Source of the DNA: Brevibacterium yomogidense
GTDB lineage: Bacteria > Actinomycetota > Actinomycetes > Actinomycetales > Brevibacteriaceae
Length of the DNA stretch: 64,000 bases
Assembly (NCBI RefSeq): GCF_900163715.1
Contig: NZ_FWFF01000001.1
Location: forward strand, 124,001 to 188,000
Reading direction: 5' to 3'
Part shown: piece by piece, positions 43,604 to 52,178 of the stretch
Layout of the letters: each line of letters starts with the position of its first letter
Position numbering within the stretch: the stretch's first letter is position 1
Program-made: the position numbers and the translations under genes
Notes under the pieces: model-generated
The model's input: only the letters and a program-made list of their open reading frames with translations
Databases searched by the model: none
Told to the model about the DNA's origin: nothing

Positions 43604-44407
43604 ATGAACAACCTTCATCGCGAACTCGCACCGATCTCCGACGCCGCCTGGGCCGATCTGGAAGACGAGGTGAAGCAGACGTTCCGCCGCCACATCGCCG
43701 GCCGGCGCTTCGTCGAGATGCCCGAACCGCGGGGCTACGAGTTCTCGTCGCTCACGACGGGGCGCGTCTCCGAGGTCACCACGGACATCGACGGAGTCCG
43801 CGGCCGCAGCCGCGTGGCCCTGCCCGTCGTCGAACTGCGCGCGCCGTTCTCCGTCAGCCGCGACGAGATCGACGCGGTCGCACGCGGTTCGGTCGACGCC
43901 GACTGGGATCCGGCCAAGGACGCCGCGATGCGCCTGGCCAAGGCCGAGGACAACGCGGTGCTCAACGGCTCGGGCGACGGCGTCGGACTGTCCGGCATCA
44001 TCTCCGCCAGCCCCCACAAGCCCATCCAGCTGCAGTCGGACATCAAGGACCTCACGTCCGCGGTGGCCGAGGCCATCACGAACCTCCGCCTCGACGGCGT
44101 GGGCGGCCCGTACAACCTGCTGCTGTCCGCAGAGCTGTACACGCAGCTCGCGGAATCCGCCGATGAGGGCAACCCGATCTCCGCGCACATCCAGCGCATC
44201 CTCAACGAGGGCCGCGTGATCTGGGCACCCGCGATCGACGGCGCGATCGTCGTCTCGCAGCGCGGCGGCGACTACGAGCTCCACCTGGGGCAGGACGTGT
44301 CGATCGGCTACGACTCGCACGACGGGGAGAAGGTCAACCTCTACCTGGAGGAGTCATTCACCTTCCGCGTGGCGAGCTCCGAGGCCGCCGTGCACCTCAT
44401 GCCCTGA
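43604..44407 (+). CDS. Family 1 encapsulin nanocompartment shell protein
   Basis: A 267-residue HK97-fold shell protein that self-assembles into a protein nanocompartment. It opens MNNLHRELAPISDAAWADLE and contains FRRHIAGRRFVEMPEPRG, FSVSRDEIDAVARGSVDADWDP, VGGPYNLLLSAELYTQLAES, GRVIWAPAIDGAIVVSQRGGDYEL and IGYDSHDGEKVNLYLEESFTF, matching Brevibacterium linocin M18 as I remember it. AGGAGGGA before the ATG is a strong ribosome site. In most genomes a cargo gene such as a Dyp-type peroxidase or ferritin-like protein lies next to it; none does here, and I saw no LGIGSL-type loading peptide at any C-terminus in the window. The final ATGCCCTGA is repeated 20 bases downstream. Confidence 0.95.
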   Translation: MNNLHRELAPISDAAWADLEDEVKQTFRRHIAGRRFVEMPEPRGYEFSSLTTGRVSEVTTDIDGVRGRSRVALPVVELRAPFSVSRDEIDAVARGSVDADWDPAKDAAMRLAKAEDNAVLNGSGDGVGLSGIISASPHKPIQLQSDIKDLTSAVAEAITNLRLDGVGGPYNLLLSAELYTQLAESADEGNPISAHIQRILNEGRVIWAPAIDGAIVVSQRGGDYELHLGQDVSIGYDSHDGEKVNLYLEESFTFRVASSEAAVHLMP

Positions 44408-44612: not shown

Positions 44613-45494
44613 TCAGTCCGTCAGCTCGCCCAGGAGGACGTGGGTGGAGTTCGGGAACGTATAGCGCCCGTCCACGGCGTACTCGTGGAAGATCCGCTCG
44701 AGGTCCGCGATGAGCGGCTCGCGGGCGGGATCGCCCTCCTTGGGCGCGTAGGACGTGGAGAGGTGGCGTTCGCGGAACGTCTCCCACCCGATCTCCTCGT
44801 CGTTGTCGAACGCGAAGCGCTGGAAGTGGGGCCCGCCGTAGAACTCCTCGAGGTCTTCGTCCGTGATCTCCTCCCCGAGCGTGAGCGCGACGAAGCCGCC
44901 CACGCGCGCACGGAACGCCTCTGCGACGGCCTGAACCGACGCCTCGCTGCGCCGTCGGAAGTTCCAGATGAGCGCGACCTGACCGCCGGGGCGCAGGATC
45001 CGCCGGCACTCGGCGCGGAACGAGGGGATGTCGAACCAGTGGAAGGCCTGGGCGACGGTCACGAGGTCGACCGCCGCATCCGCCAGAGTCGTCGCTTCAG
45101 CAGGTGCCCCCACCACGGTGAGGCGCTCGTCGTCCGCCAGGCGCGCGACGAGCGCATCGCGCATGTCGTCATTCGGCTCGACCGCGGACACGTTCCAGCC
45201 GCGGGACAGGAGCTCCGCTGTGAGCTTCCCCGTCCCCGCCCCGATGTCGGCCACGACGGGCGCACCGGCACGGCCGGCCTCGGGCACCTCGGCGGCGGTC
45301 GTGTCTGCCGCAGTCGAGTCAGCGCCAGTCGAGTCAGCGCTGGCTGGAGCAGCCTCGATCCGTTCTGCCGCAGCGGCCTCGACGCCGCCCATCCGCGCGG
45401 CCAGGAGGTCGAGCAGCTCTGTCGGGTACCCCGGTCGGCTGCGGGCGTAGACCTCACCCAGTCCGGTGAACTTGCCGGTGTTGTCCGTGGTCAT
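44613..45494 (-). CDS. Class I SAM-dependent methyltransferase, paralogue A
   Basis: A 293-residue Rossmann-fold methyltransferase. It opens GKFTGLGEVYARSRPGYPTELL; the SAM motif I is VVADIGAGTGKLTAELLSRG, motif post-I VEPNDDM and motif III AQAFHWFDI, then RILRPGGQVALIWNFRR. Between residues 37 and 76, just before motif I, an insert rich in Ala/Thr/Ser/Asp (STGADSTAADTTAAEVPEAG) is absent from its neighbour. The ATG at 45494 has AGGGAAG upstream. The adjacent gene at 45570 is a paralogue without the insert. The methyl acceptor is unknown, probably a small molecule. Confidence 0.88.
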   Translation of the reverse strand: MTTDNTGKFTGLGEVYARSRPGYPTELLDLLAARMGGVEAAAAERIEAAPASADSTGADSTAADTTAAEVPEAGRAGAPVVADIGAGTGKLTAELLSRGWNVSAVEPNDDMRDALVARLADDERLTVVGAPAEATTLADAAVDLVTVAQAFHWFDIPSFRAECRRILRPGGQVALIWNFRRRSEASVQAVAEAFRARVGGFVALTLGEEITDEDLEEFYGGPHFQRFAFDNDEEIGWETFRERHLSTSYAPKEGDPAREPLIADLERIFHEYAVDGRYTFPNSTHVLLGELTD

Positions 45495-45569: not shown

Positions 45570-46352
45570 TCAGACCCCTACGCCGCCCACGAACAGCCGG
45601 GTGGTGAGGGGGAAGCGCACCATGTCATCCTCGCGGTACTCGTCGAACAGTGCACGAAGGTCCGCGACGAGGGGCTCGTACGCCGGATCGTCCTCGCGGG
45701 GCGCGTAGGTGGCCGACAGATTGCGGCCCAGGAACTCGTCAATCGTGAGCATCTGGTCGTGGGGGAACTCGCGGTACTCGTACCCGTCGGGCTCGAAGAA
45801 CGCGTCGAAGTCCGCGGCGCTCACGCGGTGGTCGCCGCTGAAACCGGGGAAGTCCCCGATGTGCCGGCGGAAGACGTCTGCCGTCGCGTGGGTGAACGCG
45901 CTGTCGCGGCGGCGGGAGTTCCACACGAGTGCGACCCTGCCCCCGGGGGACAGGATGCGGCGGCACTCCGCGCGGAACGCGGCCTGGTCGAACCAGTGGA
46001 AGGACTGCCCGGCCGTCACGAGGGAGATGGAGGCGTCCGGCAGCTGCGTGTCCTCTGCGGTGGCGTGCACGGCGGTGAGGAGGCTGGTCGTCGCGGCCTT
46101 CGCCTCGAGGATGCCCAGCATGTCCCGGTTGGGCTCGACCGCGACGGTGCGGATGCCCTGGTAGACCAGCTCCTCGGACATCTTCCCGGTGCCGGCGCCG
46201 ATGTCCGCGACCTGGTTGGAGGTCCCCAGCCGGAATGTGTCGGCCAGCCATCCCAGGCACTCTGCAGGGTAGCCCGGCCGGAACCTGTCATAGATCCTGG
46301 CCAGGCCGGTGAAGCGAGTCGTCGCGTCACGGGGCGCGGTGCTCACGTTCAT
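45570..46352 (-). CDS. Class I SAM-dependent methyltransferase, paralogue B
   Basis: A 260-residue methyltransferase closely related to the gene at 44613: TRFTGLARIYDRFRPGYPAE, motif I VADIGAGTGKMSEELVYQG, VEPNRDML, GQSFHWFDQAAFRAECRRIL and SPGGRVALVWNSRR align directly with it, as does EDDPAYEPLVADLRALFDEY near the end. The start at 46352 is supported by GGGAGGA six bases upstream; an in-frame ATG at 46379 is weaker. The pair arose by tandem duplication and reads in the same direction, 75 bases apart. It is divergent from the leader and ABC-F gene. Confidence 0.88.
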   Translation of the reverse strand: MNVSTAPRDATTRFTGLARIYDRFRPGYPAECLGWLADTFRLGTSNQVADIGAGTGKMSEELVYQGIRTVAVEPNRDMLGILEAKAATTSLLTAVHATAEDTQLPDASISLVTAGQSFHWFDQAAFRAECRRILSPGGRVALVWNSRRRDSAFTHATADVFRRHIGDFPGFSGDHRVSAADFDAFFEPDGYEYREFPHDQMLTIDEFLGRNLSATYAPREDDPAYEPLVADLRALFDEYREDDMVRFPLTTRLFVGGVGV

Positions 46353-46542
46353 GATCGGTCCTCCCTGGCGAGCCGGCACGCGGATGTCGTCGGCGGGAGC
46401 CGGCGTCGAGCGCGACGGACATGATCGGTCAGCGTCTCTGCCGATACGATTGCTTCATTCGAGAGTACCCAGGGAAACCCCTCCGTGAAGCCTGAACGCA
46501 TGAGGGTTCGATCACACTGGAAAGGCCTCTGGACACCGCTTG

Positions 46543-46548
46543 TATCCT
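46543..46548 (+). promoter_or_regulatory. -10 element of leader/ABC-F transcript
   Basis: TATCCT ends seven bases before the leader-peptide ATG at 46556, the same leaderless spacing as several genes here. The transcript would begin at or near the leader start codon. Confidence 0.5.
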
Positions 46549-46555
46549 GGTGGGC

Positions 46556-46603
46556 ATGAGACATACGGGCATCGCACACGTGAGGATCCGCAGCCGCCGC
46601 TGA
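46556..46603 (+). CDS. Leader peptide upstream of ABC-F gene
   Basis: A 15-codon open frame, [15 protein letters not shown], ends at TGA 46601-46603, 98 bases before the ABC-F start. Its basic C-terminus and its position immediately before a set of competing stems are what is seen in leader peptides of antibiotic-responsive ABC-F and erm genes. A ribosome stalled on it would alter the downstream folding. No protein evidence is available, and the peptide itself probably has no separate function. Confidence 0.65.
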
Positions 46604-46697
46604 CGGCGGACGCGGACTCGACTCACCCCTTTCCTCCTCCGCCGTCGGACGCGCAATGTTCCGACCGGCGCCTTTCGCGCGCCCGTTCCCCGGAGGA
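46594..46697 (+). promoter_or_regulatory. Candidate translational attenuator of ABC-F gene
   Basis: Three stems compete. Stem I pairs CCGCCG (46594-46599) with CGGCGG (46604-46609) at the end of the leader frame. Stem II pairs GACGGCGGA (46602-46610) with TCCGCCGTC (46638-46646). Stem III pairs TCCTCCG (46635-46641) with the Shine-Dalgarno CGGAGGA (46691-46697). I and II exclude each other, as do II and III. A ribosome stalled on the leader would favour II and free the Shine-Dalgarno. GTCGGA/TCCGAC (46644, 46660) is a further small stem. Confidence 0.6.
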
Positions 46698-46701
46698 CCC
46701 C

Positions 46702-48360
46702 GTGCCCCGCACACCTTTCCCATCTGTTCATTCGACCCCTGCTTCTGCCACGGAGGGGACTGTCCCCGAGAGGACTGTCCCGGAGGGCGCTGCGACAGCC
46801 GCGGCTCCCACCACCGGCGCCCCTCTCACCGAAGCCCCTCTCACCGGCGCTCCCGCGGGCGACCGCGCCCACATCCGCGCCCGTGGCATCACCCACTCCC
46901 CCGGCGGGCAGCCCCTGCTCACCGGCGTGGACGTCACCGTGTCCGCGTCGACGAAGCTCGCCGTCGTCGGCGAGAACGGCAGCGGCAAGACCACGCTGCT
47001 GCGCATCCTCACGGACCGGCTCACCCCCGACGGCGGCTCCATCGACCGTGCGGGCACGCTCGCGGTCGCGGACCAGGAGCTGCCCGCGTACCCGGACGTC
47101 ACCGTGGGCGACCTCGCCGATGAGGCGATCACACCGGCCCGGGCGGCGCTCGCCGCCCTCGACGACGCGGCCGCCGCGATGGCATCCGATGCCGACGGCT
47201 CCGGGTCGGACGGCTCTGGCGGCTCCGGCGACGACTACTCCCGCGCGCTGGAGCTCTGCATCCTTCTCGACGCATGGGATGCTGAGCGGCACGTCGACAT
47301 CGCTCTCGAGGCACTGGGGGCGGTCACGGACCGGACGCGGCAGCTCGCGCACCTGTCCGTCGGGCAGCGCTATCGCGTGCGCCTGGCCTGCGTGCTGGGC
47401 GCCCAGCCGGACCTGCTCGTGCTCGACGAGCCGACCAACCACCTCGACGCCGCCGGGCTGGACTTCCTCACCGCCACCCTGCGGTCGCGCACCGGCGGAC
47501 TCCTCGTCGTGTCGCACGACGCGGCCCTGCTCGCCGACGTCGCCGATGAGTTCCTCGACCTCGACCCATCCGCGGACGGCGGCCCGCGCCTCTACGGCGG
47601 CGGCTGGGACGGCTGGCGCACCGGCCGTGCGCGGGACCGCGAGGCCTGGCAGGCCGCCTATGACGCGCAGCAGGCCGAGCACCGGCGCCTGCGGGAGTCC
47701 GTCGACCAGGCTCGTTCGCGACTGTCGACCGGCTGGCGGCCGGACAAGGGCGTGGACAAGCACGCCCGGCAGTCGCGGGCACCGGGCATCGTGCAGTCTC
47801 TCCACCGTCGCGAGGACGAGCTGCGTCGCCATGCGCTGACGGTGCCGCCGCCTCCACCGCGGCTGGCTGTGCCGACGGGGCGCACCCAGAAGGGCGCTCC
47901 CTTGCTGACCGCCGCCGAGGTTGCCGTCGCCGACCGCTCTTCCCATCCCGTCTCCGTCGGGCTGGCCGGCGGAGACCGCCTGCTGGTCGTGGGGCCGAAC
48001 GGGGCCGGGAAGTCGACGCTGCTCGCGATGCTCTCCGGGGCACTCGAACCCGACCAGGGCTGGGTGCGCCGGCACGGCACTGTCACTGTGAGCCGCCTCG
48101 GTCAGGAGGACGAGATCGACGACGGGCATCGCTCCCCCGGTCAGCTGCGCAGACGGCGCCTCACCCAGGTGCTCGCGCAGGGGCCGGACGTGGTGCTGCT
48201 CGACGAGCCGACCAACCACCTGTCGATGTCGTTGGTCGACGACCTGCTTGAGGGACTCGAGGGAGCGAGCGCCGCAGTCGTCGTGGCGACGCACGATCGG
48301 CAGGTGCTGCGGCGGCTCGCGCACTGGCCGCGGGTGGAGCTGGGTGACGCGTCAGCCTGA
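46702..48360 (+). CDS. ABC-F family ATP-binding protein (ribosome protection type)
   Basis: A 552-residue soluble protein with two ABC domains and no membrane segments. Domain 1 has [15 protein letters not shown], signature [16 protein letters not shown] and Walker [16 protein letters not shown]; the linker includes [20 protein letters not shown]; domain 2 has [34 protein letters not shown] and [12 protein letters not shown]. This matches ABC-F proteins that release antibiotics from the ribosome. The first 50 residues are Thr/Pro/Ala low complexity. GTG 46702 has GGAGGA upstream; the open frame upstream overlaps the leader and is not used. It overlaps the convergent exporter gene by nine bases. 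Confidence 0.9.
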
Positions 48361-50364
48361 CCATGCCTCCCACAGGGCGGCGTAGCGGCCGCCCGCGGCG
48401 ACGAGCTGGGCGTGCGGGCCCTCCTCGACGACCTGTCCGTGCTCCATCACGAGGACCCGGTCCGCCGCCTCCGCCTGGCTGAGCCGGTGCGCGATGACGA
48501 GCGCGCCCCGGCCCTCCAGCGCGGCCGCGGCGGCGGTCTCGAGGAGGTGTGCGCCCGTCGACCCCGCCTCGGCGGTCGCCTCGTCGAGGATCGCGATGTC
48601 CGGGTCCGCGAGCACCAGCCGGGCGAGCGCGATCGTCTGCTCCTGCAGCGGGGAGAGCCGCGCACCCCCGTCGCCCACCACGGTGTCGAGGCCGTGGGGC
48701 AGGGCGAACGCCCAGTCCGCGCCCACGCGGCGCAGTGCGTGCTCGATCGCCGCCGGGGGCGCATCGGGGACCGGCATCGCCACGTTGTCGCGGATCGTGC
48801 CGACGAAGGTGTGGACCTCCTGCGCGATCATCGCGACGTGTGCTCGGAGTCGGTGCTCGGGCAGGGTCGTGATCTCGTGTCCCGTGCGCGCAGCCGGCCC
48901 GTTCACGATCGCCGGCCGGTCCTCGATCACTGACCCGCTTTCGTTCACCGGCCCGTCTTCGCTCACTGACGAGTCCTCAATCACCGGCCAGTCCTCGATC
49001 AGCTGCGCGGAGCCGCTTGACGGCGCGGCGAGCCCCGCCGCGATCTTCGCGAGCGTCGACTTCCCGGCACCGGTCGTGCCGACCACGGCCACCACTTCCC
49101 CCGGTGCGACCGTGAGATCGACTCCGCGCAGGACGTGGTTCTGCTCGCCGGGCAGGGCCACCTGGTCGTCGTAGGAGTACCAGAGGTCCCGCAGGACCAG
49201 GCCCGCGGACCGAGCTCCGCCGTCTGCGGCGGCGACGGGACCGTCTGACCCGGGCACGGCCTCGGCGGCGGTGTCTGTCGCATCTGTCGCGGTGTCTGTT
49301 GCGGCCGCCTCGCGGTCTCGCGAACCAGCCGCGTCGATGACGCCGACCATCCGGGTGAGGGAGGCGCCCGCCGACTGGATCTGGTCGAAGAGCCCCACCA
49401 GCGCGCCGATCGGGTTGAAGAGCCGGTGGAAGACCAGCGCCGCGGTCGTGACTGCGCCCGGAGTCGTCTCGTCGAACCACACCAGCGCGAAGCCGGTGAG
49501 GAGGAGCAGGGAGAGGACGACGGCCTCGGCGCGGTTGTTGCGGCTGAAGGCGCGGGTGAGGAAGCGGAAGACTCCGATGGAGAGGTCGCGGGCCTCCACG
49601 GAGGCGGAATCGATGCGGGCGAGCTCGATGTGCTCGGCGCGGTGGGCCCGCAGCGTCCGGGCTCCGGTGAGGCCGCCCAGCAGCCGGCCCGACCTGCGAC
49701 CGATCGCTGCGCGCTCCTGCTGATAGAGCGGGGCCGAGCGCGGCAGGTACCACCGCAGCGTCAGCCAGTACATCGGCAGGGCGACCAGGCCCACGAGGCC
49801 CAGCCGCCAGTCCACCGCCGCCAGCCCGATGGCGGACACGACGACCACGAGGACGGACTCGACGACGAGCGGCAGGATCTGCGTCGACGTCTCGCTGACC
49901 CTGCGCGAATCGTCTGCGACGCGGGAGACCAGGTCGCCGGTGCCCGTGCGCTCCACGGTCTGCGCGTCGAGCGCCAGCGCGGCGCCCACGACGTCCGTGC
50001 GGAGTCCCGCCACGGCCGGCATCGCGACCCGCGCCAGCGCCCACGCCCCGATCCATGTGCCCACCGCCATGACGAGGCCCGCGACGGCGACGGCGATCGC
50101 GCTCGTCCAGACGACCTCGGGGCCGGCTCCTGCCGGAAGCGCGTCGACCAGTCGACCGATCGCCCACGGCCCCACGAGCCCGGCTGCCGCATTGGCGGTG
50201 CCGGCGACGAGGAGGACGACCAGCCAGCCGGCCCGTCCTCGCAAGTGGGGCAGTAAGCGGGCGAAAGCGCGGCGCCTGGTCGCGATGGGCAGGGTGGGGG
50301 TGTCCGGCCGGGTGGAGGAGTCCGGCGGGCTGGTGGCGTCCGGCACCGTGGAATCCGTACTCAT
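48352..50364 (-). CDS. ABC exporter half-transporter, degenerate signature
   Basis: A 670-residue fused membrane and ATPase protein. Six hydrophobic segments occupy residues 40-310. The nucleotide-binding domain keeps Walker A ([15 protein letters not shown]) and Walker B ([15 protein letters not shown]) but has LSPLQEQ where LSGGQ is expected. Between Walker A and the Q-loop region an insert of six-residue repeats ([30 protein letters not shown]) has been added. Its ATG overlaps the stop of the partner gene by four bases, so the pair forms a heterodimer whose intact ATP site would combine this Walker A with the partner's LSGGQ. The substrate is unknown. Confidence 0.9.
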
Positions 50365-52178
50365 CGGGCCACCGCCTCCCGGTAGGAATCACCGATGGTG
50401 CCGGCGGCGCCGAGCAGTCCGCTGTGCGTGCCAGTGACAGCCGGGGCGTCGGCAGGCACGTAGACGACGGCGTCCGCGGCGGCGAGGAACGCAGGCGAAC
50501 CTGTCACGACGAGGGTCACGGCGTCGCACCGGAGGGTGGCGATGCCGGCGGCGATCCGCGCCTCTGTCACGGCGTCGACCGCCGTGGTGGATTCGTGCAG
50601 GACCAGGATCCGCGACTGCGCGTGGAGCGACCGGGCCAGCGCGATCCGCTGCCGCTGTCCTCCCGACAGGTTGCCGCCCAGCTCCTGGATCCTGTGGTCA
50701 AGGCCGTCGGCGACCAGCCCCAGCAGTTCGTCCGCGCCCGAGGCCGCGAGCACATCCGCCGCCACGTCGCCGGAGGCTGGTGGGGCCGCCGGGGCAGTGC
50801 CGGGTGACGCAGTCATGTCCGTGCCGGATGACATCGTGATGTTCGACCGGATGGTTCCCTCGAACAGGTCGACGGCGTGGGGTGTCACGAGGAGGTGATC
50901 GGGCCCCAGCACGCGGCTCTGCGACGTGAGGGCTGTCAGGACGTCGTGGGCGAGCGCGTCCTCGTCGACTAGCACACAGAGGAGCGTCCCCGCGGGGACG
51001 TCGACGGCGGGGAGGGAGTCGCCGCTGACCGTCAGCCCCGATGCGTGAGCGGTCACGGCCAGGCGAGGTGCGCCGTGTGGGGGTGCTGCGTGCCCGGGCT
51101 CCGCCTGCGGGTGTGCAGCACGTGACGGTCCAGAGTGTGAGGGTCCATCGTGCGACGGTGCGGCGTGCGCGGGCTCGGTCGGGGCCTCGGCCGCGGAGTG
51201 GGTCTTCGGGTGGGTCTCTGCCAGATCCGTCAGCAGCGCCGCGATGCGCGACGCCGCGCCGTGGGACCGGGCGGTGAGCCCGACGATGTCGGCGAGCGCA
51301 CGCATGGGCTCGGTGAGGAACGCAGTCATGCCGAGGATCGCGATGAGTGCCCCCGCACTCATCTGCCCGTCGAGCAGACGGAGGCCGGCGACGACGAGGA
51401 CCACGGCGAGCACCGCGGACATCACGAGCGCGCCGACGCCGCTGAGCCGTCCGGAGCGCTCCCCCGTCGCGACACCGGCGACGGCTGCGTCATCGGACGT
51501 CGTGCGGAAGCGGCGCAGCGCCCACTCTGCACCGCCGAGCGCCTTGAGGACCCGGAGTCCACGCATGAGGTCTGCGGCGGAGTTCGCGGCGCGCGCCGTC
51601 GCCGCGAGCTGTGCACCGGCCTTCACGGACACGGCCCTGCCGGGCAGCGCCACGAGGACCAAGCCGACGGGCACGGCGATGAGCACCAGCAGCCCCGTGA
51701 CGGCATCCGATAGGACGAGGAGGACGGCGGCGACGATCATGCCCAGCAGCGCGGCGACGCCGCGGCCCAGGTGGGCGAAGACCTCGGCAGCGAGATCGGC
51801 ATCCGCAGAGGCGATCGACAGGACCTCACCGGACGCGCGGTCCGGCGGCAGATCCGGTGAGGTGAGCGCAGCGTGCGAGACCTCCACGCGCAGCGCGTGC
51901 GCTTCATGCTCCCGGGCCGCATTGCACAGGCGGGCACCGAACCGGTAGCCGTAGCTCAGGACGGTGAAGAGCAGCGCGATGCCCGCGATGGACACGGCGA
52001 GCATCGGCAGGGAACGGGGGATGATCGCGATGTCGACGACGGCCCCGATCACCACCGGGACGAGCGCTTCGCACACCTGCCACACCGACAGTGAGGCGAC
52101 GCCCGGGAGCAGCAATCGGAGCCTGCGGACGAGCGCGCGCGACAGCAGTGTCCTGCCGGACGAGGGTGGGGCGGGCAT
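50361..52178 (-). CDS. ABC exporter half-transporter, degenerate Walker A and B
   Basis: A 605-residue ABC exporter subunit with about six membrane segments. The signature LSGGQRQRIALARSL is intact, but the Walker A position reads VPAGTLLCVLVDEDALAHDV with no GxxGxGK(S/T), and Walker B is RILVLHESTTAVD, with His for the usual Asp. It therefore cannot bind ATP canonically and must work as the partner of the 48352 gene. A His/Pro/Ala-rich insert of about 50 residues (EPAHAAPSHDGPSHSGPSR) separates membrane and ATPase domains. TAGGAT six bases before the ATG marks a leaderless start for the two-gene operon. Confidence 0.88.
   Translation of the reverse strand: MPAPPSSGRTLLSRALVRRLRLLLPGVASLSVWQVCEALVPVVIGAVVDIAIIPRSLPMLAVSIAGIALLFTVLSYGYRFGARLCNAAREHEAHALRVEVSHAALTSPDLPPDRASGEVLSIASADADLAAEVFAHLGRGVAALLGMIVAAVLLVLSDAVTGLLVLIAVPVGLVLVALPGRAVSVKAGAQLAATARAANSAADLMRGLRVLKALGGAEWALRRFRTTSDDAAVAGVATGERSGRLSGVGALVMSAVLAVVLVVAGLRLLDGQMSAGALIAILGMTAFLTEPMRALADIVGLTARSHGAASRIAALLTDLAETHPKTHSAAEAPTEPAHAAPSHDGPSHSGPSRAAHPQAEPGHAAPPHGAPRLAVTAHASGLTVSGDSLPAVDVPAGTLLCVLVDEDALAHDVLTALTSQSRVLGPDHLLVTPHAVDLFEGTIRSNITMSSGTDMTASPGTAPAAPPASGDVAADVLAASGADELLGLVADGLDHRIQELGGNLSGGQRQRIALARSLHAQSRILVLHESTTAVDAVTEARIAAGIATLRCDAVTLVVTGSPAFLAAADAVVYVPADAPAVTGTHSGLLGAAGTIGDSYREAVAR

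Follow-up and report, generated by a model that had tools for sequence, protein, structure and literature searches.

Background

The tripeptide R-X-R is described as an arrest motif of ribosomes exposed to macrolides or ketolides, with the codon of X in the P site, and X+P, XDK and XPW are also named as arrest motifs in the accessible part of the same source (PMC8298421). Upstream of erm(X) lies a leader peptide gene that, according to the available portion of PMC3350403, might act by erythromycin-inducible translational attenuation. Transcription attenuation has been demonstrated experimentally for msrD (accessible part of PMC10314930) and for lmrC of Streptomyces (accessible part of PMC8546547).

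Here we analyse the region in front of an ABC-F gene of Brevibacterium yomogidense, which lies in a window of 64 kb (the whole stretch of DNA under study, to which all positions refer). Judged from its sequence, this region very probably controls the ABC-F gene as a translational attenuator that works by ribosome stalling and is of the macrolide type. A search of the open-access literature by titles and the beginnings of abstracts, with most subscription papers lying outside, found no account of this attenuator before actinobacterial ABC-F genes. When the peptides MHLYFL, MHLFFL, GIASMKLW and RRLRSRR were searched in that literature, only MHLFFL was found, in a paper whose title points to methionine production in Candida. 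Within the same bounds, a family that is leaderless, keeps a fixed register, works by a hairpin relay, has interchangeable motifs and is common to ABC-F and erm genes appears to be new.

Results and discussion

Leader and competing stems in the window

A sequence-only reading of the window had proposed a 15-codon leader followed by three competing stems, and on re-reading the leader, the stems and their coordinates proved to be exact (Table 1). Stems I and II share the bases 46604-46609 and stems II and III the bases 46638-46641, so that stem I excludes stem II and stem II excludes stem III, as had been proposed. Thus, the region contains mutually exclusive helices, one of them hiding the Shine-Dalgarno (SD) sequence, with exact pairing in the window and compensatory changes for both states in its relatives. 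The first accessory hairpin (46644-46665) lies inside stem III and overlaps the 3' arm of stem II.

The MFE fold of positions 46556-46720 (165 nt) has -65.4 kcal/mol and includes stems I and III. Its stability is mildly unusual (z -2.05), with 9 of 200 shuffles equally stable. No Rfam family matched positions 46200-47000 at E values up to 1, and none matched the loci of seven relatives at the gathering score.

Table 1. Positions of the proposed attenuator and of the ABC-F gene in the window.
Feature	Position	Strand	Remark
-10 element TATCCT	46543-46548	+	7 nt spacing to the leader ATG
Leader ORF, 15 codons	46556-46603	+	without visible Shine-Dalgarno sequence; conserved in orthologues
Arrest motif Arg-Ile-Arg (+X+), codons 10-12	46583-46591	+	predicted P site at codon 11 (46586)
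Stem I core, CCGCCG / CGGCGG	46594-46599 / 46604-46609	+	leader stop codon in the loop
Stem I, outward extension in the MFE fold	46580-46626	+	longer than in the sequence-only reading
Stem II (induced state), GACGGCGGA / TCCGCCGTC	46602-46610 / 46638-46646	+	9 bp, exact
Stem III (repressed state), anti-SD TCCTCCG / SD CGGAGGA	46635-46641 / 46691-46697	+	7 bp, exact
Accessory hairpin GTCGGA / TCCGAC	46644-46649 / 46660-46665	+	centroid fold; invariant in 6/6 of the window clade
Accessory hairpin GGCGC / GCGCC	46667-46671 / 46679-46683	+	one compensatory pair, G-C 3 / A-U 3 (n=6)
Shine-Dalgarno CGGAGGA and GTG start of the ABC-F gene	46691-46697; 46702-46704	+	read from the sequence
ABC-F ATPase P0001, 552 aa, two ABC domains	46702-48360	+	NCBIfam

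The leader accompanies the ABC-F gene

Among 65 orthologous ABC-F genes, 63 are preceded by an intact short leader, and a short leader ORF is kept just upstream of the gene in 64. In the remaining member of these 64 (L109, from Brevibacterium) a break close to the start interrupts the leader frame, and the region of the stop-codon stem and the -10 element are retained; only L223 has no leader. No leader ORF was found before ten more distant ABC-F genes (paralogues). Orthologues at E <= 1e-100 occur in 27 of 57 Brevibacterium genomes, that of the window included, and all 27 carry a leader ORF upstream. The same is true of a second Micrococcales family (f11), where 16 of 47 genomes have an orthologue at E <= 1e-85, each with its leader.

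The order sample of 139 genomes gave 22 matches at E <= 1e-70, 17 of them new. The seven best of these (E <= 1.5e-112) all have the leader, and the ten weaker ones (E >= 8.5e-81) have none within 350 nt before the start of the match. In the class sample (148 genomes) there were seven matches at E <= 1e-85, six of them new, of which five have a leader and one, L223, has not. On plasmids, 20 records contain a relative at E <= 1e-60, and the nine that were retrieved, from eight genera, all have a leader. Viral contigs contained no relative of the ABC-F protein P0001. Moreover, a DNA pattern made of stem I and stem II matched at least 127 of 396 genomes of the order; six of its matches in f11 were leader-like by eye, and these six, the only ones followed, all lie before an ABC-F gene.

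The set of 58 used below consists of the intact leaders from the genus, from f11 and from the order and plasmid samples, the class sample being left out. The distance from leader to gene start is 118-170 nt in 56 of them and 202 and 388 nt in the other two, the last value belonging to L096, whose main start is unsure and was assumed.

Leader motif, register and start

Ten of the 58 leaders read MHL[YF]FL (type C). In all of the other 48 (non-C), the sixth codon before the stop (-6) encodes R in 35 and K in 13, and the fourth (-4) R in 39 and W in 9, the residue between them being L in 28, P in 16, V in 2, I in 1 and D in 1. This gives R-X-R or K-X-R in 39 leaders, K-L-W in seven and K-P-W in two. 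K-P-W fits the XPW motif, and K-L-W (7/48) fits none of the motifs named in the accessible part of PMC8298421. The window leader holds both RIR and RSR, and so has the Arg/Lys-X-Arg/Lys of +X+ leaders. Since the Arg codons at -6 vary synonymously (AGG, CGG, CGC) and the terminal RR is dispensable, as seen in RLRSAA, KVRVVA and RLRPVL, it is the motif and its register that are constrained. The five leaders of the class sample (MNLPLYL, MQYLFFL, MIQSVLYL, MHLYFL and MCQSQLYL) are short and hydrophobic, much like those of type C.

A tree was built from 63 ABC-F proteins, and several long branches are flagged in it. All 58 leader-bearing proteins cluster (100/100), separate from the five paralogues that it contains. 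So do the 48 non-C rows (99/98) and nine of the ten type C rows (98/83), with L215 standing apart. The W label needs four changes on this tree, three of which are forced by well-supported branches, indicating that this position has switched between R and W.

The window leader has five Arg codons in 15, and a terminal RR is common among the leaders, as would suit an arginine-responsive attenuator whose Arg-rich end, RIRSRR, senses charged tRNA-Arg. However, some orthologue leaders have few or no Arg residues (MHLYFL, MSFCMKPWFCR, MCAGTALMRLRSAA), the non-C leaders retain the -6/-4 register, and what is controlled is an ABC-F or erm gene rather than one of arginine metabolism. Sensing of arginine is therefore very improbable, and an arrest peptide responding to a macrolide-type drug remains the preferred explanation.

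The TATCCT seven bases before the leader ATG, from which the leader had been taken to be leaderless, was borne out by the comparison. In all 49 genome leaders the end of an element TANNNT lies 6-7 nt ahead of the leader start, and with plasmids included this holds for 57 of 58, the exception being L208 with 8 nt; as a background, 9 of the 1347 ATGs in the 64-kb window have such an element. Because this spacing recurs in 57 of 58 leaders, the leader is probably leaderless, and in the window transcription probably starts at or adjacent to the ATG at 46556. Besides TANNNT, the upstream positions that stood out among 49 leaders were G at -6 (40), G at -3 (35) and C at -1 (43). No purine-rich run was seen at Shine-Dalgarno distance before the starts of these 49.

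An ORF with the TANNNT spacing and an arrest motif was present in 47 of 58 orthologue upstream regions, to which type C leaders with TANNNT add ten more; the controls gave 2 of 2900 shuffles and none of ten paralogues. It might be argued that the ORF and the GC-rich hairpins arose by chance and have no regulatory role, as the window fold has only the mild z given above in a GC-rich genome and the window's own switch energies fall inside the shuffle range (see below). Yet this idea is already contradicted by the conservation tests, namely the recurrence of the leader in nearly all orthologues and its absence from all ten paralogues, by the shuffle controls and by the compensatory changes described next, and we give it practically no credence beside a regulatory leader.

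RNA structure across relatives

Most relatives have one hairpin more than the window. In these, the segments would pair as 1:1', 2:3 and 4:SD in the repressed state and rearrange to 1':2 and 3:4 in the induced state, leaving the SD free. MAFFT placed the 3' arm of stem II wrongly between clades (in alignment A1, and in alignment A2 by three positions), and stem II was therefore judged in each sequence and in an alignment of Brevibacterium alone. In the window register, over seven bases beginning with the G of the stop codon, it is found in 45 of the 48 non-C leaders when G-U pairs are counted, 32 of them exact, and this pairing is absent in L096, L187 and L190.

Alignment A2 holds 34 of the 48 non-C leaders, leaving out the six of the window clade, L102, L176, the divergent L096 and L196, and four plasmid leaders. 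Unguided RNAalifold on A2 returned 1':2 and 3:4, which is the predicted induced state, with 1':2 three positions off the window register. On 15 Brevibacterium leaders, also unguided, it gave 1':2 in the window register together with 3:4, with compensatory changes at four pairs. On 13 f11 leaders it gave a mixture of shifted 1':2 and 4:SD with no 3:4, neither state being cleanly backed.

When the structures were named beforehand, 98.3% of the cells of A2 were paired in 3:4, where two pairs are double-changed (GC 20/AU 11 each), and 90.7% in the repressed state of 1:1', 2:3 and 4:SD, where 4:SD has compensatory pairs CG 21/UA 12 and UA 21/GC 12. Stem I of the repressed state was paired in 80.3%, its outermost pair in only 10 of 34. 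Double-changed cells numbered 22 for 3:4 (8.1 in shuffles) and 25 for the repressed state (9.3 in shuffles), but the shuffles ignore relatedness, and the changes follow clades and thus count as few events. For these structures on A2 the number of double-changed pairs and that of pair types were not above shuffles.

The window clade (six sequences, alignment A3) has a simpler topology, in which the anti-SD directly adjoins segment 2. Its stem I core is invariant in all six, stem II is paired in 54 of 54 cells with eight of nine pairs invariant, and stem III is paired in 88.1% of cells; its covariation score, which comes from one compensatory accessory pair, was reached by 26 of 500 shuffles. 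The best reading of these stems is that they are a simplified form of the three-hairpin relay of most relatives. The sequence-only reading had staked its proposal on conservation of the peptide and the stems in orthologues, and this was found, as intact leaders, the C-terminal motif, the stop-codon stem and stem II all recur. The covariation that it expected is present in part: compensatory changes exist in the wider family, whereas in the window clade stem I is invariant and stem II varies one-sidedly at one pair.

Predicted effect of stalling on the Shine-Dalgarno region

The energy of opening the SD region was computed with the ribosome footprint masked for 30 leaders, comprising 27 of the 48 non-C (21 from Brevibacterium and six from f11) and three of type C. 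In the 27 non-C leaders, the predicted stall gave a mean gain in SD opening of 2.07 kcal/mol, compared with 0.22 in shuffled spacers. The gain was positive in 25 and absent in two, exceeded the leader's own shuffle mean in 26 and was matched by at most 5 of 100 shuffles in nine. When the P site was displaced, the mean gain was 1.79 at -6, 2.66 at -3, 2.07 at 0 and 1.46 at +3 nt, and it became negative from +6 on. Together with the fixed -6/-4 register, these offsets indicate that the arrest motif is placed where a stalled ribosome would free the switching segment.

The window itself is weak in this respect, with a gain of 0.7 kcal/mol that 12 of 100 shuffles equalled or exceeded. Hiding of the SD without drug averaged 7.7 kcal/mol as opposed to 6.8 in shuffles, and went beyond 95 of 100 shuffles in only four of 27 leaders; opening in the window costs 4.9 kcal/mol against a shuffle mean of 6.1, with 73 of 100 shuffles as high. 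As both the gain and the opening cost of the window lie within the shuffle range, energy alone does not demonstrate a switch there. Of the proposed sequestration of the SD, the exact seven-base complement stands, but without drug the SD is hidden no better than in shuffles.

L113 and L114, two of the three type C leaders analysed, carry in the leader itself a TTCCTCTG(A) that complements the SD region, and a ribosome stalled there would therefore unmask the SD directly. Shuffles reached as high in 5 of 100 cases for L113, 43 for L114 and 17 for L112, only L113 being clearly above them.

From the parts and how they are conserved, from the fixed register and from the compensatory changes, we infer a mechanism that would begin with transcription from or adjacent to the leader AUG and translation of the leader without a Shine-Dalgarno sequence. 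In the absence of drug, ribosomes would finish or leave, stem I would form around the stop codon and stem III would hide the SD of the ABC-F gene. With a macrolide-type drug bound, the ribosome would stall on the codons of Arg10-Ile11-Arg12 while Ile11 occupies the P site. A stalled ribosome reaches forward to about +16 from the P site, which, counted from codon 11, is position 46602, the first base of stem II. Hence the 5' arm of stem I would be covered and 46602-46610 would be free to pair with 46638-46646, removing the anti-SD and allowing the ABC-F protein to be made.

Stalling could instead act on transcription, preventing premature termination, whether intrinsic or Rho-dependent, with no exposure of the SD, as at msrD and lmrC. 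The experiments on these two genes give this alternative a precedent, and the window SD is not unusually hidden in the drug-free fold. Nevertheless, positions 46300-46800 contain no site like an intrinsic terminator, which speaks to the intrinsic route and not to the Rho-dependent one, and the helix at the start region is conserved with compensatory changes. We consider transcriptional attenuation rather unlikely here. The translational attenuation proposed from the sequence is supported by the conserved motif, the stems, the start-region helix and the -10 spacing, with a drug as the presumed inducer.

The ABC-F gene and its neighbourhood

The NCBIfam model that best matches P0001 is TlrC/CarA/OleB/SrmB (ABCF_producer), with 265.5 bits against a cut-off of 800, and ribo_prot_ABC_F gives 259.8 bits against 380. 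As these scores are below the curated cut-offs for resistance proteins, P0001 is classed only as ABC-F. Its closest named relatives are from B. jeotgali (80% identity) and other Brevibacterium, and among solved structures EttA proteins are the nearest by sequence. On a plasmid of P. equi an orthologue lies 1.2 kb from erm(46); this context and the attenuator suggest a role of P0001 in antibiotic resistance. In that region (L208, from a record titled pVAPA, perhaps by mislabelling) the ABC-F orthologue and erm(46) each have their own short leader with TANNNT upstream.

The ABC-F frame is open upstream as far as a TTG at 46540 (46540-48360, + strand), through the whole attenuator, so that a call of 606 aa could hide the leader. 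On the same strand, an encapsulin gene is found at 43604-44407 (Pfam Linocin_M18, 291.7 bits). Two tandem class I methyltransferase genes (44613-45494 and 45570-46379, - strand) are divergent from the ABC-F gene and have weak RrnaAD matches below the cut-off. The overlapping genes of two ABC exporter half-transporters (48352-50364 and 50361-52178, - strand) are convergent with it. On five plasmids from four Micrococcales and a Gordonia (L210-L214), the ABC-F orthologue overlaps the next gene, for an MFS transporter, by 4 bp. We considered whether this MFS gene might be mef; in the two tested, the best NCBIfam match was Tet(V), below its cut-off, with weak Mef matches in one.

A related module before erm genes

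A covariance model (R1) was built from ABC-F leaders only. In a phylum sample of 296 genomes it gave one match, an erm locus (L217), but the first filter passed over even the genome of the window. The gene at L217 encodes an Erm methyltransferase (227.4 bits, cut-off 212), and its leader, MCASIRKRPCL before the stop, has the same register as the ABC-F leaders. In the window R1 matched the attenuator best (31.9 bits, E 0.0006), with the match running up to and ending at the GTG, and there was no match in the five paralogues given to it, in L223 or in eleven type C-like loci.

Eleven erm loci were compared, consisting of nine plasmid erm regions (of 40 records listed), erm(46) on L208, and L217. 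R1 matched the leader of eight of them at E <= 1 and missed three. The E values were 5.7e-7 for L217, 6e-7 for Nocardioides, 4.4e-6 for erm(X), 0.0055 for erm(50), 0.011 for erm(51), 0.052 for erm(36) and 0.26 and 0.66 for two erm(46); the last three are in the range of chance, seven chance matches having occurred in the window at E 0.19-0.93. The pattern of the 3:4 hairpin is present in eight of 11 erm loci and in 35 of 42 non-C ABC-F loci outside the window clade (1 of 2200 and 15 of 8400 shuffles, respectively), and in none of the six of the window clade or the ten of type C. The erm leaders are looser: by reading, R-X-R occurs in nine of 11, several in another register, the Nocardioides leader has no stop at the expected place, and two erm(46) leaders are without R-X-R.

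The chances seem to us evenly balanced that a single actinobacterial cassette, made of a leaderless arrest peptide, a fixed distance from arrest to stop and a three-hairpin relay, senses macrolide-type drugs for the unrelated ABC-F and erm genes, with several exchanges of the motif in place (R-X-R/K-X-R for K-L-W/K-P-W, and type C outside that clade). From the type of arrest motif and the related module before erm genes, the drug class is most likely macrolide/ketolide. If the attenuator reading is right, drug-inducible expression of this ABC-F clade would be widespread in actinobacterial chromosomes and plasmids, with a sensor common with erm, and automatic gene starts such as the TTG at 46540 could hide such leaders. 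For questions such as which peptide contexts make an actinobacterial ribosome with bound drug arrest, and whether sensors of this kind require leaderless initiation, the leaders gathered here are a natural set.

Comparison with known systems

One of the closest known systems is erm(X) of Corynebacterium (pLEW279a). Its leader, MLISGTAFLRLRSNR before the stop, has Arg at -6 and -4 like that of the window, with TATAAT 7 nt before the leader ATG, and its 3:4 hairpin is shared with most ABC-F relatives. Unlike the window, it controls an rRNA methyltransferase and its stem sequences differ.

ErmDL and MefAL have the Arg-X-Arg macrolide arrest motif (accessible parts of PMC8298421 and PMC10314930) and are likened to the window leader by peptide motif alone. 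ErmDL precedes an erm gene, and MefAL, unlike the attenuator proposed for the window, acts by transcription attenuation at mefA. MsrDL (MYLIFM) is a short hydrophobic leader before a macrolide ABC-F gene and resembles the type C MHL[YF]FL of the relatives. According to the available portion of PMC10314930 it works by transcription attenuation at an intrinsic terminator, whereas the window leader is of the +X+ type.

Among actinobacteria, lmrC, are5sc and tiaA of Streptomyces share with the reading proposed for the window an attenuation of ABC-F genes based on uORFs (accessible parts of PMC8546547 and PMC12421871). Their uORFs respond to lincosamides, streptogramin A and pleuromutilins, which differ from the macrolide class suggested for the window, and those of are5sc and tiaA stall at the start codon, unlike the stall predicted here. 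The attenuation is transcriptional for lmrC and are5sc, and for tiaA the transcriptional reporter was constitutive.
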